A DNA stretch of 30,310 nt, taken from the IMG/VR virus record IMGVR_UViG_3300046007_003502, positions 1 through 30,310 of that record; one strand, 5' to 3'. Under the pieces are notes generated by a model. The model ran no database searches. It was not told the DNA's origin and worked only from the letters and a program-made list of their open reading frames with translations. The position numbers were made by a program, and so were the translations under genes. Below, piece after piece: positions 22,962-30,310 of this stretch; within the stretch, counting starts at the first letter, position 1, and every line of letters begins with the position of its first letter. This DNA is from a virus.

Positions 22962-23555
22962 CTACAATAATTTAGAAAGGGTTTCTCCTATAACTTTACC
23001 GTCTTCTTTGAATTGTACATAATCTTGTTCTATCATTTTTTCAATCTTATGTGTCCATTCAAATCCAACCATACCGACTAATTCTATACCTCGTGTAATT
23101 GGATAAACAATAGCAGACTTTGTTCCTCGTTGGACAAAGAATGCTCTTGTTAAAATATCATCTATGTTTTCTACTACTGGAAAGATACCACGTTCGGTTT
23201 GAACTGAGTCAACCAATCCCGAATAAAGTGTGATTGGTAAATTTTGGTATTCTTTAAATTCGGTGCTAACCCCGTCTTCGAGTGCTTCAAAGGTGGTTGA
23301 TAGTTTGTTCATGGATTTACCTGTCTTGTATTTACCACCGTTATGACGTTGTAGTATAAAAGACCGTTGAGCTTTGTATTCACCCAATTGTTGCTCTAAA
23401 ATGGTTTGAACTAATTTGGATTGAGAAATCTCACGGGTAATCTTACGATGTTTGTATTCACCGTATTTGTATTTCAAGAACCAAGACAGGAATACTCCCG
23501 TTAAGGTTACTGCACTTGAAACTATTAGTTGTATGTAATTTGAGAGTATTTCCAT
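22962..23555 (-). CDS. Membrane-anchored GAF-like domain protein (197 aa)
   Basis: Residues about 8-28 form one hydrophobic segment (YIQLIVSSAVTLTGVFLSWFL) followed by KYKYGEYKHRK, giving an N-out/C-in anchor. A helix (about 40-60) links to a globular domain with RSFILQRHNGGKYKTGKSMNKLSTTFEAL, LPITLYSGLVD, FFVQRGTKSAIVYPITRGIELVGMVGFEW. The last part is the 'G..S.....i...g..vG.i.i' strand pattern of GAF domains. GAF domains bind small ligands, but no ligand residues can be assigned. It is 58 nt downstream of the large Hint gene, after a strong terminator, with an SD-like AGGA only 1 nt from the ATG. A regulatory or lysis-timing role is possible; this is speculation. Confidence 0.7.
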   Translation of the reverse strand: MEILSNYIQLIVSSAVTLTGVFLSWFLKYKYGEYKHRKITREISQSKLVQTILEQQLGEYKAQRSFILQRHNGGKYKTGKSMNKLSTTFEALEDGVSTEFKEYQNLPITLYSGLVDSVQTERGIFPVVENIDDILTRAFFVQRGTKSAIVYPITRGIELVGMVGFEWTHKIEKMIEQDYVQFKEDGKVIGETLSKLL

Positions 23556-23613: not shown

Positions 23614-26600
23614 TTATCCACCAGTATTTGATGTCTGAGTATTTCCAGGATAACTCCTAAGTTTTCTACGGATATATTTAGCGTTATCTTGTAGTGGAGT
23701 CGATAGGGGTTCTCTCGGTGGTAAATCATATGGTCTGAATTGAAAATCAATATCTATAGGTTTATTTTTAAGGTTCCACCACGCATAAAACTGATTATAG
23801 TTTCTTACTATTGAAGACCATTCATTTCTAAAATCATATTGTAACCATGCATATAACCAAGTAGGCATAGAACCAGGTGCACCATTTGAATATTTTGGTG
23901 GTAAACAAAGTTCGGGTATAGAACAAATTTTTAAAAATCTTGGTGAAGGACTACAAGTTGGACAGGTTACATCGTTACATATACCATAAAGTTGACAATC
24001 TAAATCTGGTTCTGGTTCATCTATTTCGTTAACTTCGATTAAAGATTCTGCCAAAGTATTAATGTTATCATCATATCTAGTAACTGGTAAATAATCGTCA
24101 ATAGGAGCGGGCACTGGTTTATTATGAACACGAATACCGTTTGCAATGTAGGTTGAATTCGGTTCAACACTTATATTGTAGGTAAAATCTTGTTTTAGAA
24201 ACTCAATACTGACTATTTTAGTTCTTTCATTTTTGTCAGTAATTAGATAGTCGCCTACTAATAGATTTCCTATTTCTACAAATTCATTCTTTTCCGTCAA
24301 AACAGGGTGATTCTTTGTTATGTCCAAATACTTTCCATTTTCTAAACTATATCGATATAAATCAGAAACATTTTCTGTATGATGGAAGGTCTTTGTTACA
24401 ATTGAGTTATGTAGATTTCCATTTTCATCAAAAGATATTACTTCATCTCCAATCTTAATTTTGGAAATTTCGATTTCCCCATTTGATGAAATTACTTTTG
24501 TATCATCAGAAAAACAATTTGTTTCACATTCTTGAATTTTTTCTATAAGTTTTTGATACACCTCTTCAGTGGATAATGTAACTTGATATTCACATCCTTG
24601 AATTTCTTTACCACTAGATACATCTTTATATCTTGTTAATGATTTTATTTTTGGTGAATTTGGAGACAGATTAGATTCCCAATCACTTCTCACTATCCCA
24701 TCGTTTGGCCAGTTCATATCATTATAATCTTTTTCTGTATCTATCAATTTCTCCATAAAACAACAACCTTTACCGAAATTTGGATTAACCAAATCTAAAC
24801 CATATTTCTTACGGATAAGATAGACTTTTTCACTATCACTTATTCCAGTTGACCATAATGGATTATTTACTTTATGTATAGATAGATATGGTGGTACTGT
24901 TAGTATAAGTTTCTTGATTCCAAATTCAGTAACACCAGATTTATGAGTTCCTGTAAAATACTTTGATAATGAATCAGAGCTTTTTATAGTATTTGCATCT
25001 CTTGCGTACTTATAATTTGGCAAAAATTCCAAAATCTTTGTTTCGCCTTGATTTCTAACTAATTCTGTTTTATTTTCTAGTATCCATTCAAAATATAAGT
25101 CATTTATCAATTTTGCATTAGTATATGGTATACCTTCGTGTAAGAAATAAGGGTCATACTGTTTAAATAATTCCTTTATAAGATTGTTAAAAATATCAAA
25201 CGATTGTTCTCTATCAGATGTATGAATACCTAAATCAAAATGATTCGGTGCAACATCAACTACTCTTGGAGCAGGATTTATATCCGGTATTGGTCCTGTA
25301 AAATTTGATGACATTCGATATGATTTAAATTTCTGTCTGTCTTTATCTATTATTTGTTTTAATATTCGTGCGTCTTCACAACTTAAATGAGACCAAAATA
25401 AAGATTCCCCGTTTTTCCCCATCAAATCATCGTAACTTTTTATAATGTAATCTTCTCTTTTCTTTATTGTTTCTGATTGAACATCTTGATATGATGTTGG
25501 ATTACCATTACTATCATAGGCAACTGGCAATTTCCCATCAGATGTTTTTTTTATTTTAATCTGACCCCCAGATTGTACATATGGTCCTTCGATATATCCG
25601 CCTTTATATGCATCAATAAATTTCTGTTTTAATTTTTCTCGTTTTTGTCCTAATTCTATATTGTCAAGAGTTTCACTTATAACTAAAAAAGTTCCAGTTA
25701 CAATCCAACCGAATGCATTTTTACCTATACCAAGTCTCTCGGAGAAAGATCTAACGATTGCCGATTCCCATGCCCACAATGATATAATAGAATTTATACT
25801 TGTTGACGCAACTTTGAACCAAGCAATTGTAGTTTTTTTCTCCAATGCAGCGTAGAAATCCGCATACCATTTATACGCGGTCGATGAATATTTAAAAAAC
25901 TTACCGTATATAATATCTTTTATGATACCATTTGCGGTTTCTGCCTTTAACCAAATGGAAGGTAAATAATTTCCACTTATAAATGTTTTAGATGTATCTA
26001 GTATTTTATGTGTGACTGCATATTGAAGTTGAAATAAAGCAGTCGCTGCGTTTAAACCCCAATATACCTGTGATGTACTTTTTGCTTTTAAGGCATCTAT
26101 AGCCAAATTTTCGGCTTCAGACCAAAAATTCGGTATGCCAGAAATTTTTTTATCGCTAAACATTCGATAAATTGTTTTCTCATTTGGTATTTTTCTTCCA
26201 TCAAAAAAATAACCAGAAAAAATTTGTTCAAATATTTTTCGTTGTTCAACGGATATTGAAAATTCTTTTTTACGTCTATCTATACCAAACTCGGTATTTA
26301 CAAGAGCAATTGATTGTAATTTTTTCAGAGAAGTTATTGCAGCTTGAAAAACTATCAAATATATCTTGTACTCCAATTCTGTTAAAGTTTTACCGTCTCC
26401 AGAGTGTGAATCTAGCCAAGGTTTTGAAAAAACTGATGTAAAATCAGGTTCTATTAAAGTTCTTGGATACATTAAAGTTTTTTTATCAGAACAAGAACCC
26501 TTATATTCATTCGGAATAAATACAGAAGCATCAAAATCAGATTCAAATGTATTCTCCGGAAATGCTCTATTTAGTGGATTGTTTCCGTCAAAAAGTCCTA

Positions 26601-28650
26601 TCCATGTTGATGGAGAAAATGGGTCTCCTATTTTTGCATAAACCCCAGTTCCTTGTTTATTCCATACACGTTCATGATATTTAAAATGAGGGTGGTTTTT
26701 ATCAAGAGACTGTATGTTTGATATATATGCAATCAAATTTAAATTTTCTATTTCTTTTTCTACGACTTTGCCACTTTCAACTGCAATAGTTTTGACGTTT
26801 TTTTGAGAAACATTTTTAAATGACTCATTTGCAATTGATAATTTTGTTTTCTTCTCACCATACTCATTAATCACATCCTTAAAAGAACCATCTACTCCAT
26901 AAATTACAGGCAAGATTTCTTTTTTATCTAGACCGTCTTTTATAGCATTCGAAAATATTTCTGCCTCTTTTATTAATTCTCTACCTTTAATTTCCGATTC
27001 TATTTTGAGGATGGAAAGATAATTTACTGGTATACCACCTCTTGGTCCATTCTGAGTCATTATTGTGCCGTTTGGTGATTTATTATCTATTCCATCAGAT
27101 ACGGTATCTCTTGAATCGAACCAATATGTGACATTTTCCATATCATCTAAATAACTATTAGAACCAAATCGTGTATAATTAGATATTGGATTAGTATTTG
27201 CATTACTCACACCACCCATCTGTATCTCGTTTGGTTCAGTATCAAACACATTATATTTAGATAGACTAAATCCCGTTGGATAATACTTCCTATTTTTTTC
27301 ATTTGAATCATCAACAGCATGACACCATAAACCATAATACCAATAATCCATATCTTCTTTTTTATATTTAGCATCATCTAAAAATCTTTGATATGGGTCT
27401 ATTGTTTTAGTAGGTGATGATTGCCCAGCAATAAAATGAAAATTTGCTCTTTCAAATTTTATAACTTTTCGTTCATCATTAGATGATGGATACTTTTTAT
27501 TATATCTATAAAATGGCTCTGGTAATAAAAACTGATTTTCGTATCTCATCCTAAATGGATATTTTTTTTGATATACGTCGTCCATGTTTTCGATACGGGT
27601 AGGATTTATTCGTTCTTTTGTCCTTGTATTATATGTATGAGGTGGGTATCCAAATTTATCTGAATATCTTTGGTCAGGTGATGCAGATATTCCATGAAAT
27701 AATCTCAAATAAAATATCTTTTCTCTAATACTAGGTATAGGAACTCCACGTATAGAACTAAACGGTGTTTGAATTTTTCCAGTTCCCGGAAGAATTTCAT
27801 TATCACCGATACCGGGAATTGAATCACGGGATATGGAAATTAACTTACCGATGTCACCAACTTTTATGGATGGTAAACCTGTCTTATTTTTTGTTACAAA
27901 TATACCATAATCATTTGCAATTTTTCTATATTCGTCATTTTCATGAGACGCTAACCATAAAAGATATAATGGTTCTTGCCGTGTTGATGTGTTAACAATT
28001 AAATTGTATAAGAAAGGGTCAAATTGATCAATTTTTGTAAGATTCAAATATTTTCTAGCAGAATCAACTGCTATATTAAAAAGTACCATATCATCATTTG
28101 ATGTTGTTAAATTTGGAGTTTCACTTCCATTTTTTAACACATCAGCTAAAAGAAGTTGGCTAAGTAATACATTACTACATTCCAATCTTGTTCTTTTTTC
28201 TGCCATTTGTGAAACAATAAAATCAAAATCTGGCCATAAAAATAAAGACTCACCCACTCCAACAACATCTTTCAATTGAGATTTGATAATTTCAATTTGT
28301 TTTGATGCTAATGGGTGCTCAAAAATATCAGGATTTCCATTTATACTTTTAAGTATTTCGTCATCAGTTGGAGCAAAATTTAAAACAGAATCTACCCAGT
28401 ACCATTTCCTGTGTTCCAACGGGTGTGCTTTAATAACAAAATCGGATGCATATTCTTTTCCGTTTTCATCATTACTCAAATCGAAATATTCGGAATTTAA
28501 TATTGTCTGTAAAAACCTAAGTTCTATATCTGTAAAGTTTGAATAATCAAAATCGATAAATGCTCTATTTCCTATTTTTTTATTATAGGAATCTATTGTA
28601 CCAGACCATTCATATTGTCCAAAAACAGAATCTAGTTGTGCAAATCTCAT
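23614..28650 (-). CDS. Very large protein of unknown function with an internal Hint (intein-like) domain (1678 aa)
   Basis: Residues 1-1378 form a large soluble region rich in Asp, Asn, Lys and aromatic residues, with no family I recognise. Around 960-1000 there is a more hydrophobic helical stretch. Residues 1379-1510 are a complete mini Hint domain starting with Cys1379 and ending His1509-Asn1510. It is followed by 168 residues including a Cys-rich patch (six Cys within about 31 residues, 1552-1582) and a Trp/Tyr-rich end. Predicted autoprocessing would separate a 168-aa C-terminal piece. TAGG lies 6 nt before the ATG. The gene sits upstream of neck and tail genes and between small genes with virion character, so a virion or injected protein is likely. 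It is visibly more AT-rich than the sheath gene, hinting at lower expression or separate acquisition. Confidence 0.75.
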   Translation of the reverse strand: MRFAQLDSVFGQYEWSGTIDSYNKKIGNRAFIDFDYSNFTDIELRFLQTILNSEYFDLSNDENGKEYASDFVIKAHPLEHRKWYWVDSVLNFAPTDDEILKSINGNPDIFEHPLASKQIEIIKSQLKDVVGVGESLFLWPDFDFIVSQMAEKRTRLECSNVLLSQLLLADVLKNGSETPNLTTSNDDMVLFNIAVDSARKYLNLTKIDQFDPFLYNLIVNTSTRQEPLYLLWLASHENDEYRKIANDYGIFVTKNKTGLPSIKVGDIGKLISISRDSIPGIGDNEILPGTGKIQTPFSSIRGVPIPSIREKIFYLRLFHGISASPDQRYSDKFGYPPHTYNTRTKERINPTRIENMDDVYQKKYPFRMRYENQFLLPEPFYRYNKKYPSSNDERKVIKFERANFHFIAGQSSPTKTIDPYQRFLDDAKYKKEDMDYWYYGLWCHAVDDSNEKNRKYYPTGFSLSKYNVFDTEPNEIQMGGVSNANTNPISNYTRFGSNSYLDDMENVTYWFDSRDTVSDGIDNKSPNGTIMTQNGPRGGIPVNYLSILKIESEIKGRELIKEAEIFSNAIKDGLDKKEILPVIYGVDGSFKDVINEYGEKKTKLSIANESFKNVSQKNVKTIAVESGKVVEKEIENLNLIAYISNIQSLDKNHPHFKYHERVWNKQGTGVYAKIGDPFSPSTWIGLFDGNNPLNRAFPENTFESDFDASVFIPNEYKGSCSDKKTLMYPRTLIEPDFTSVFSKPWLDSHSGDGKTLTELEYKIYLIVFQAAITSLKKLQSIALVNTEFGIDRRKKEFSISVEQRKIFEQIFSGYFFDGRKIPNEKTIYRMFSDKKISGIPNFWSEAENLAIDALKAKSTSQVYWGLNAATALFQLQYAVTHKILDTSKTFISGNYLPSIWLKAETANGIIKDIIYGKFFKYSSTAYKWYADFYAALEKKTTIAWFKVASTSINSIISLWAWESAIVRSFSERLGIGKNAFGWIVTGTFLVISETLDNIELGQKREKLKQKFIDAYKGGYIEGPYVQSGGQIKIKKTSDGKLPVAYDSNGNPTSYQDVQSETIKKREDYIIKSYDDLMGKNGESLFWSHLSCEDARILKQIIDKDRQKFKSYRMSSNFTGPIPDINPAPRVVDVAPNHFDLGIHTSDREQSFDIFNNLIKELFKQYDPYFLHEGIPYTNAKLINDLYFEWILENKTELVRNQGETKILEFLPNYKYARDANTIKSSDSLSKYFTGTHKSGVTEFGIKKLILTVPPYLSIHKVNNPLWSTGISDSEKVYLIRKKYGLDLVNPNFGKGCCFMEKLIDTEKDYNDMNWPNDGIVRSDWESNLSPNSPKIKSLTRYKDVSSGKEIQGCEYQVTLSTEEVYQKLIEKIQECETNCFSDDTKVISSNGEIEISKIKIGDEVISFDENGNLHNSIVTKTFHHTENVSDLYRYSLENGKYLDITKNHPVLTEKNEFVEIGNLLVGDYLITDKNERTKIVSIEFLKQDFTYNISVEPNSTYIANGIRVHNKPVPAPIDDYLPVTRYDDNINTLAESLIEVNEIDEPEPDLDCQLYGICNDVTCPTCSPSPRFLKICSIPELCLPPKYSNGAPGSMPTWLYAWLQYDFRNEWSSIVRNYNQFYAWWNLKNKPIDIDFQFRPYDLPPREPLSTPLQDNAKYIRRKLRSYPGNTQTSNTGG
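24121..24516 (-). other. Hint domain, A-type bacterial-intein-like (132 aa, no endonuclease)
   Basis: Block A is CFSDDTKVISSNG with Cys at position 1. Block B is DITKNHPVLT, with the conserved Thr and His (Thr1445, His1448). Block F is FTYNISVEPNSTYIANG and block G is IRVHN. The residue after the terminal Asn is Lys, not Cys, Ser or Thr, so standard splicing chemistry lacks its acceptor; cleavage is expected, as for many A-type bacterial-intein-like domains. No homing endonuclease insert is present. Confidence 0.88.
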
Positions 28651-28888: not shown

Positions 28889-29491
28889 TTATGGCATCAT
28901 ACTGAAAGATAATTCTTCTAGTAAATCGAGTATAAATCCTTTAATTCCTTTGCGGGCTGATTTTTTCTTTTGATCATATAGTTGACTCCATTCGGCAAAT
29001 CTCATAGTCTTACCCGGATATTTTACAGATGGTATAGGTTCAAGTGTTTCTGCATCATAAACTTCTCCTTGTAAATCACCTTTTATTTTTTTTACAACTA
29101 TACTTTCGAATACTCCAGTAGCAGGTCCAGCTGTCATATAATCCCACCAACTATCAATCAACCTTTCATTTAATTCTTCCCACTTCTTCATTCGTTCACG
29201 TTCCTTCAATTTTATAGGGTCATTGGTCGGTGGTAGATTCTTGAGAGCCCATTTACTTGTAACAGGTTTGTTTCTCCAAGAATCATTTTTCTTTTTTGAT
29301 TTCGATGATTCATTTGTTTTATTCATACGTTCAATCTTTTTTGCTAGTTGTAATAATGAACGAACTTTTACATCTAATTCGTAGTAATCAGAGTCTTCAG
29401 TTAATGATGTACGTCTACTAACGGATTCAGATATTTTCTTTAATTCAATATCTGCTTCTTCAAGTAATTTTTTTCTGCTAGTAAGTTTCAT
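28889..29491 (-). CDS. Protein with capsid-targeting-like N-terminus (200 aa)
   Basis: I choose the ATG at 29491 over the GTG 12 nt upstream: GGA lies 7 nt before it, and the resulting start MKLTSRKKLLEEA matches that of the 116-aa protein. The helix ends L-E-E before Ala, the form of a prohead-protease (T4 gp21-type) site. The rest has a basic middle (SKSKKKNDSWRNKP) and a conserved-looking region ERLIDSWWDYMTAGPATGVFESIVV...YDAETLEPIPSVKYPGKTMRF, then a hydrophobic helix near the C-terminus. No known family recognised. The upstream gap contains a recurrent late-type box. Candidate internal or virion protein. Confidence 0.75.
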   Translation of the reverse strand: MKLTSRKKLLEEADIELKKISESVSRRTSLTEDSDYYELDVKVRSLLQLAKKIERMNKTNESSKSKKKNDSWRNKPVTSKWALKNLPPTNDPIKLKERERMKKWEELNERLIDSWWDYMTAGPATGVFESIVVKKIKGDLQGEVYDAETLEPIPSVKYPGKTMRFAEWSQLYDQKKKSARKGIKGFILDLLEELSFSMMP

Positions 29492-29514
29492 TGTTATTTC
29501 CACTATGATATATC

Positions 29515-29539: not shown

Positions 29540-30310
29540 TCATACACCATTTGACGTTTTTAAATTTGTACCCTTTGGTACTAATAAACAAGTACAATTA
29601 CCGTCTTTATCTTTACGGAAATAGAATGTCCTAGATACACCGTACCAAATATCACTTTCAACGATAATATACATTTCTTGACCCGGTTTTAGACCATCAC
29701 ATCCTTGAATTGGGTCATTTAAATTCATTTTTTTGATAAATGAATTGTTACCTTCTATAAAATACTTGATTCTATCACAATCTAACGAGTTTATATTTGT
29801 TAATGGTATCGCGTCACCAAGATTTATTGTAATATCAGGTATTCTCGTTGGTGGAGTTGGTGTAACTATATCCGGTTTCTTACCACCACCTTCCACTCTC
29901 TTATCATCTTCTTTAACACGTTGTTGTATTTTCGAATTAATATCGGATAAAAATCTAGGCCATATTTGCATAATATAACCCTCACGTTCCCATTCCAATC
30001 CTGGTTGTCCCATAGAATACTGCCAAGCAATTCCTGTAATATCGAATACACCAGTTGGAACCGGTACTCTATATCTAGCAATTTCTGTATTTGCATTTAT
30101 TCTTATAGGTATAACAAATCCATTTTCGTCTGCCGCATAATAAACCTTATTCGGTAAAAACTGAACTTTTGATGGGTCTAATTTTTCTTGTATTACAACG
30201 TCTGAATATAAACGATACCCATAATCTATTGGATGTCTATTTCTCCAAATTGGGCTTTCTCCCTTATAGTTTTCATATCTATTGATATAATTTGTTAGTG
30301 CCTGACGTCC
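29540..30310 (-). CDS. Conserved phage protein, 5' end outside the window (at least 256 aa)
   Basis: The frame stays open from the window edge to the TGA at 29540. The internal ATG at 30013 is not the start, because the sequence upstream reads as continuous protein: YKGESPIWRNRHPIDYGYRLY, DPSKVQFLPNKVYYAADENG, then FDITGIAWQYSMGQPGLEWE. It continues with REGYIMQIWPRFLSDIN, a Pro/Thr linker (TPTPPTRIPDITINLG), and a Cys-containing beta region (SLDCDRIKYFIEG, PIQGCDGLKPGQEMYIIVESDIWYGVSRTFYFRKDKDGNCTCLL). I do not recognise the fold. Its place at the head of this cluster suggests a virion component, perhaps a baseplate or appendage protein. Confidence 0.8.
   Translation of the reverse strand, partial: GRQALTNYINRYENYKGESPIWRNRHPIDYGYRLYSDVVIQEKLDPSKVQFLPNKVYYAADENGFVIPIRINANTEIARYRVPVPTGVFDITGIAWQYSMGQPGLEWEREGYIMQIWPRFLSDINSKIQQRVKEDDKRVEGGGKKPDIVTPTPPTRIPDITINLGDAIPLTNINSLDCDRIKYFIEGNNSFIKKMNLNDPIQGCDGLKPGQEMYIIVESDIWYGVSRTFYFRKDKDGNCTCLLVPKGTNLKTSNGV

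Follow-up and report, generated by a model that had tools for sequence, protein, structure and literature searches.

An A-type bacterial intein-like Hint domain as a putative self-cleaving linker in a giant protein of a phage structural gene cluster

Introduction

What does a complete, predicted self-processing domain do inside a giant protein encoded among the structural genes of a phage? The question is raised by a 30,310-base viral contig that was analysed over its whole length (the window) and in which a 1678-residue protein carries an internal Hint domain. To our knowledge, the role of bacterial intein-like (BIL) domains for the proteins that host them is still open. In the relatives of the window protein, one and the same boundary occurs as a fusion, as two genes and joined by a Hint that was probably gained twice, which makes this family a natural comparison for the role of BIL domains.

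The Hint domain of the giant protein

The giant open reading frame (ORF) and its parts, with the basis of each assignment in brackets, are as follows.

23614..28650, minus strand: giant ORF, 1678 aa (open reading frame and translation)
24517..28650, minus strand: body, residues 1-1378, the N-terminal flank of the Hint (remote, mainly C-terminal homologues in L085 (2017 aa), L108 and L116)
25411..25923, minus strand: conserved body core, residues 910-1080, a hydrophobic stretch and an EGPYxQSxG motif (core HMM)
24517..24594, minus strand: conserved body end CEYQVTLSTEEVYQKLIEKIQECETN, residues 1353-1378 (similarity to L085, L108, L116 and L088)
24121..24516, minus strand: Hint or A-type-BIL-like domain, residues 1379-1510, 132 aa (Pfam, profile, AlphaFold2, Foldseek)
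24514..24516, minus strand: Cys1 (C1379), predicted to form the thioester (present in 58/58 of the full-length, non-redundant Hints)
24307..24318, minus strand: block B, Thr1445-x-x-His1448 (Thr 57/58, His 58/58)
24121..24126, minus strand: terminal His1509-Asn1510, predicted Asn cyclisation site (His 54/58, Asn 55/58)
24118..24120, minus strand: +1 residue Lys1511 (sequence)
23617..24120, minus strand: C-terminal piece, residues 1511-1678, 168 aa (only in the near-identical contigs L002 and L003)
23905..23997, minus strand: Cys-rich stretch, six Cys in residues 1552-1582 (sequence)

An earlier note on this DNA had read a complete mini Hint at 24121-24516, and residues 1379-1510 indeed contain Cys1379, Thr1445, His1448 and His1509-Asn1510 as it described. 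The 1378-aa body in front of the domain and the 168-aa Cys-rich part behind Asn1510 are likewise in place, and the +1 residue is the non-nucleophilic Lys1511. The domain is just 132 aa long and has no endonuclease insert. The six Cys residues within residues 1552-1582 of the C-terminal piece compare with eight in the entire 1378-aa body.

Two Pfam families match the domain with scores above their cut-offs, PT-HINT with 30.7 bits (cut-off 27.7, E 4e-7) and Hint with 30.1 bits (cut-off 29.7). Hence, the match to Hint domains is above chance. The Intein_splicing family scores 31.3 bits, which is under its cut-off of 35.8. When a profile of related phage Hints was compared with solved structures, the best match was the BIL domain 2LWY (E 6.5e-22), and both the gp41-1 intein (1e-10) and Hedgehog (0.008) ranked behind it. 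AlphaFold2 modelled the domain with a pLDDT of ~97, and a Foldseek search with this model gave BIL2 of the Tetrahymena BUBL1 locus as the top matches, with 2LWY and inteins also found. Most of the 168-aa C-terminal piece was modelled with a pLDDT below 50, and the model of body residues 683-1378 (four sequences) had a pLDDT of 31, which made it unusable for fold assignment.

The domain combines a Hint fold and inner splicing motifs lacking an endonuclease with Cys at position 1 (C1379), a C-terminal His-Asn (H1509-N1510), a +1 residue (K1511) other than Cys, Ser or Thr, and a hypervariable, non-conserved host protein, as the content of its genomic slot differs between relatives. These are sequence-level features of A-type BILs, and judged by its sequence the window Hint is one of them. 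Type A BILs end in His-Asn and mainly cleave (PMC4031507; see also PMC7664689), and they can splice or ligate at a low level by aminolysis, in which a freed amine attacks the thioester (PMC4031507). Two other memberships were considered and rejected. A class 1 intein would require a +1 nucleophile in place of K1511 and a conserved site of a conserved protein in place of a variable slot protein; for a polymorphic toxin the PT-HINT domain is present, but Pfam gave no toxin or immunity partner in the C-terminal piece and the next gene.

The variable slot in the structural gene cluster

The window carries genes for tail sheath, tube, tape measure, baseplate, PhoH and neck proteins. Its closest cultured phage is Microcystis phage Mel-JY01 (76% in the sheath), in which the gene order is capsid, one 241-aa protein, a p197 homologue, PhoH and neck. 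Among the relatives, which are freshwater myoviruses, the block p197-PhoH-neck-...-sheath is constant and the slot between capsid and p197 is variable: it mostly holds small proteins of three families, giants being in the minority. The contig ends before the capsid gene, and we infer the capsid side of the slot from the relatives. The position of the giant protein among structural genes suggests that it may be part of the virion, where the earlier note saw a possible maturation switch or tether in the Hint. The other genes at this locus are listed below.

22962..23555, minus strand: p197, the conserved gene downstream of the variable slot (comparison with relatives)
28889..29503, minus strand: upstream 204-aa ORF, the counterpart of a 214-aa ORF in L085 (E 6e-6)
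29540..30310, minus strand: open ORF of 256 aa that forms the C-terminal part of another large protein of the slot (54% over 103 aa, against the 1130-aa ORF of L085)

Two relatives encode a protein of 459-460 aa in the same gene cluster (L029:726-2105 and L121:373-1749). The L029 protein shows weak Zn-finger-like, MTES_1575 nuclease-like and Mom-like matches, and the L121 sequence is similar to it.

The boundary between body and C-terminal region

The giant body has a conserved end, C[EQ]Y.I.L..E.F followed by Cys, in five contigs: the window, L085, L108, L116 and L088. The body end of the window is similar to that of each of the other four with pairwise z of 5.5-8.3, and none of 500 shuffles reached the score in any comparison. 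A core HMM built from the window, L085, L108 and L116 independently recovered L121 (E 3e-4). Viral scans with the body and with the family alignment found no giants beyond the five of this body family, and no relative of the giant body was found in cultured phages.

What follows the body end differs between these contigs. In L085 the body ends at a stop codon (TAA) and a new 226-aa gene begins, with AGGAG ahead of its ATG. In L108 and L116 the chain continues past the body end without a Hint. In L088 a Hint with an HN-Lys junction is located at the body end, and what comes after this Hint is similar to what comes immediately after the body in L116 (score 87, z 7.8, 0/500 shuffles). As the flanking regions are homologous, the Hint behaves in this pair as a module that L088 has and L116 lacks between them. 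Relatives both with a Hint (L088) and without one (L108 and L116) were thus found, as the earlier note had suggested looking for. Its description of a Hint inside a giant protein holds insofar as the domain is internal to the ORF. However, no single fixed protein hosts the Hint as an insert. It lies where two modules meet, and relatives connect these modules by fusing them directly, encode them as separate genes or place another Hint between them.

The C-terminal region of L116 and the 226-aa ORF of L085 share a 27-aa match, a score reached by 1/500 shuffles. The 168-aa piece of the window gave nothing significant against the C-terminal regions of L108, L116, L088 and L085 (z -1.0 to 1.7), and it has no demonstrable homologue outside the near-identical contigs L002 and L003. 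Its homology to the other C-terminal regions appeared plausible in a multiple alignment and was not significant in the shuffle tests, so its proposed equivalence to them is based on position, clustered Cys and an STPL motif.

Two contig-specific observations concern this boundary. In L088 (1045-2706), the Hint is preceded by no more than the final ~110 residues of the giant body, and the 350-aa ORF upstream, which overlaps by a few nucleotides, is not recognisable as the remainder of the body. The contigs L002 and L003, from samples with adjacent accession numbers, start (L002:1-10 and L003:1-10) 0 and 25 nucleotides from the 3' boundary of the window Hint; these starts may reflect an assembly fork caused by population variation, a pattern indistinguishable from chance.

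The Hint-less relatives L108 and L116 are what one would expect of an ordinary mini-intein that excises itself without consequence for the phage. The domain has a size of 132 aa with all inner splicing motifs, and low-level splicing is possible in type A BILs (PMC4031507). The +1 residue is, however, Lys instead of Cys, Ser or Thr, the host proteins are hypervariable rather than conserved, and a sequence profile ranks a BIL domain as the nearest solved structure. We consider a neutral mini-intein very improbable.

The same comparison bears on a release mechanism resembling that of polymorphic toxins, in which the giant would be delivered into the cell together with the DNA, and the variable C-terminal piece would be freed by the Hint as an effector. 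The Pfam PT-HINT match is above its cut-off, the succession of a variable N-terminal body, a hydrophobic stretch, the Hint and a variable C-terminal piece resembles the toxins described in PMC3482391, and the C-terminal pieces differ between relatives. Yet the C-terminal region stays fused to the body in L108 and L116, and the 168-aa piece has no toxin domain by Pfam. Nor was an immunity gene recognised: the next gene, p197, has no Pfam match and is conserved in phages that lack any Hint. Such an effector function is therefore quite improbable.

Conservation and ancestry of phage Hints

Conservation was evaluated in 58 non-redundant full-length phage Hints that are less than 70% identical. Cys1 and the block-B His are present in all 58 and the block-B Thr in 57; the penultimate His is kept in 54 and the terminal Asn in 55, the other three having Asp. 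The scan motif included His-Asn with alternatives, which partly biases the terminal His-Asn counts; Cys1 and block B were absent from it, and the requirement for full length mildly favours Cys1. The earlier note had named free substitution of the catalytic Cys or Asn in homologues as evidence against self-processing, and these numbers speak against such substitution. The few catalytic departures are mostly second copies with a terminal Asp for Asn and, in tandem proteins, a first copy that lacks the Cys. The +1 residue is Lys in 18 of the 58 Hints, Gly in 13, Arg in 9 and Cys in 7. An inactive remnant that serves as a structural spacer would hardly retain every catalytic residue, as the window Hint does, nor would these residues be conserved across very divergent Hints, which makes this explanation extremely improbable.

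In a maximum-likelihood tree of the 58 Hints, the window Hint forms a group (support 100/99) with five Hints from L126 and L089, all of which come from the same genomic slot. BLAST of the window protein against the L089 and L126 proteins found little similarity outside the Hint; one of the L089 proteins matches the body core weakly (E 0.01), which is insufficient to call the two homologous. On this sequence evidence, different giant proteins carry Hints of one lineage that is specific to the slot. The Hint of L088 lies on a different branch from that of the window, and for this reason the boundary between body and C-terminal region was probably filled by a Hint twice, in the window and in L088, although the long branches allow other histories.

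Hints in other phage contigs

Proteins with more than one Hint were also observed. The slot proteins L126:2713-6699 and L089:6655-9915 have two: the first ends in HN-Leu or HN-Lys, and the second, located right at the C-terminal end, retains Cys1 and ends in SDR or RDR. The segments between them are about 64 and 197 aa long and have flanks like those of the central part of a double-BIL protein. Two to four tandem Hints per ORF of 750-913 aa are found in L218:4241-6976, L212:220-2958, L200:199-2913, L219, L204 and L213. Several of these arrays have HN-K or HN-R one or two residues ahead of the next Cys, and the first copy of L200-type arrays has no Cys1.

Lambda-like siphophage contigs also encode this type of domain, within tail assembly protein I and within tail fibre J. 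In L182:7641-8957, L184, L187, L188, L191, L173, L172 and L180, the Hint is located in the Gly-rich hinge of a lambda-type tail assembly protein I (for L182, PHROG 32, E 1e-24). The layout is an N-domain ending in ...VPIVEGAGGGGGGG, Cys1 of the Hint, VHN and GGGGKGGGG. No cultured phage was found with a Hint in tail assembly protein I. According to PMC1779556 the N-domain is ubiquitin-like and its terminal Gly is conserved, so these proteins are possibly phage ubiquitin-like/BIL fusions resembling Tetrahymena BUBL. The gene that follows in L182 (8964-14327), L184, L173 and L172 has a second, internal Hint that belongs to a different tree branch; the L182 gene is J by PHROG 31. Long proteins with a Hint near the N-terminus are present in L165:7935-14108, L174:7926-10886, L190, L161, L163, L159 and L183. 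Their first 15-28 residues or so end Gly-rich (in L165, VPLIEGGGGGGG) and are followed by the Hint and HN-GGGG or HN-KGG; the L165 and L174 proteins are tail fibre J (phrog_31), with the J domains after the Hint.

A different use of the thioester was also considered. The Hint could activate the body C-terminus for conjugation, whereby an amine, either the side chain of Lys1511 or a lysine in a different protein of the capsid or the host, would attack and thus attach the body covalently, in the manner of Tetrahymena BIL2 with its ubiquitin-like domain. Beside the window Hint, whose flanks are poorly modelled by AlphaFold2, Pfam recognised no ubiquitin-like domain. BIL2 of the BUBL1 locus, the top Foldseek match, forms a Lys isopeptide bond (PMC8616854); the +1 residue is Lys in the window Hint and in 18 of the 58 Hints counted above; and the C-terminal second Hints of L126 and L089, with Cys1 kept and Asp for Asn, fit a role in which it is mainly the thioester step that counts. 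On the other hand, no acceptor is known, the intact Asn1510 suits plain cleavage, and Lys at +1 by itself does not predict conjugation. Conjugation by the window Hint is unlikely in our view. We regard as slightly more doubtful still the general form of this idea, that phage BIL-type Hints perform ATP-free conjugation in virion assembly, parallel to Tetrahymena BUBL, by passing the thioester of the body end (elsewhere, of the Gly-rich end of tail assembly protein I) to a partner lysine and so attaching the giant slot proteins.

A candidate self-cleaving linker

The reading that we favour, with moderate confidence and on grounds of sequence and predicted fold, is that the A-type BIL Hint of the window acts as a self-cleaving linker between the body and the C-terminal piece. 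It is supported by the retention of the catalytic residues across 58 diverse phage Hints and by a boundary that is fused, split or Hint-joined. After translation, Cys1379 would convert the N1378-C1379 bond into a thioester, which would then react with water or an amine; Asn1510 would cyclise, cutting the chain before Lys1511. The products would be the body (1-1378), the free Hint and the 168-aa Cys-rich piece as separate chains, the state that L085 attains with two genes. A minority might be religated via the freed amine of Lys1511 into a continuous chain as in L108 and L116. Of the earlier prediction of cleavage rather than splicing, cleavage stands as the main expectation (PMC4031507), but a non-nucleophilic +1 residue is compatible with splicing because aminolysis allows ligation in type A BILs (PMC4031507). 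With their direct fusions, L108 and L116 show that some members of the family do without cleavage. If the self-cleaving linker is real, it would place self-processing alongside the phage prohead protease and make viruses a source of small autocleaving linkers.

Comparison with known systems

In the open-access literature, to which our search was confined and whose silence is therefore weak evidence, phage Hints are reported only as enzyme inteins (for example in terminase, ribonucleotide reductase and helicase). The phage inteins of terminase, helicase and polymerase have the same fold and about 25-34% identity (cultured phages), but they reside in conserved enzymes, whereas the host protein of the window Hint is hypervariable and the +1 residue is Lys. 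The Hedgehog autoprocessing domain (1AT0) shares the Hint fold and the Cys1 thioester; its sequence match is much weaker (E 0.008), and the window Hint, unlike it, is internal and ends in His-Asn. The PT-HINT domain of polymorphic toxins (PF07591) also sits just before a variable C-terminal piece, but no toxin domain or immunity gene is recognised here. Tetrahymena BIL2 (6Y75/6TMM), the top fold match, is a BIL domain with thioester chemistry; it is found in a ciliate and flanked by ubiquitin-like domains, none of which is recognised here.

The closest counterparts are the A-type BILs, of which 2LWY of Clostridium thermocellum is a solved example and with which the window domain shares the Hint fold, Cys1, the T..H motif, the terminal His-Asn, a non-nucleophilic +1 residue, the lack of an endonuclease and a hypervariable host. 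Known A-type BILs are found in hypervariable regions of non-conserved bacterial proteins, whereas the window Hint belongs to a phage structural gene cluster and marks a boundary at which relatives are fused, split or joined by a Hint. In summary, it is a known domain type in an unusual host, the proteins of a phage structural cluster.
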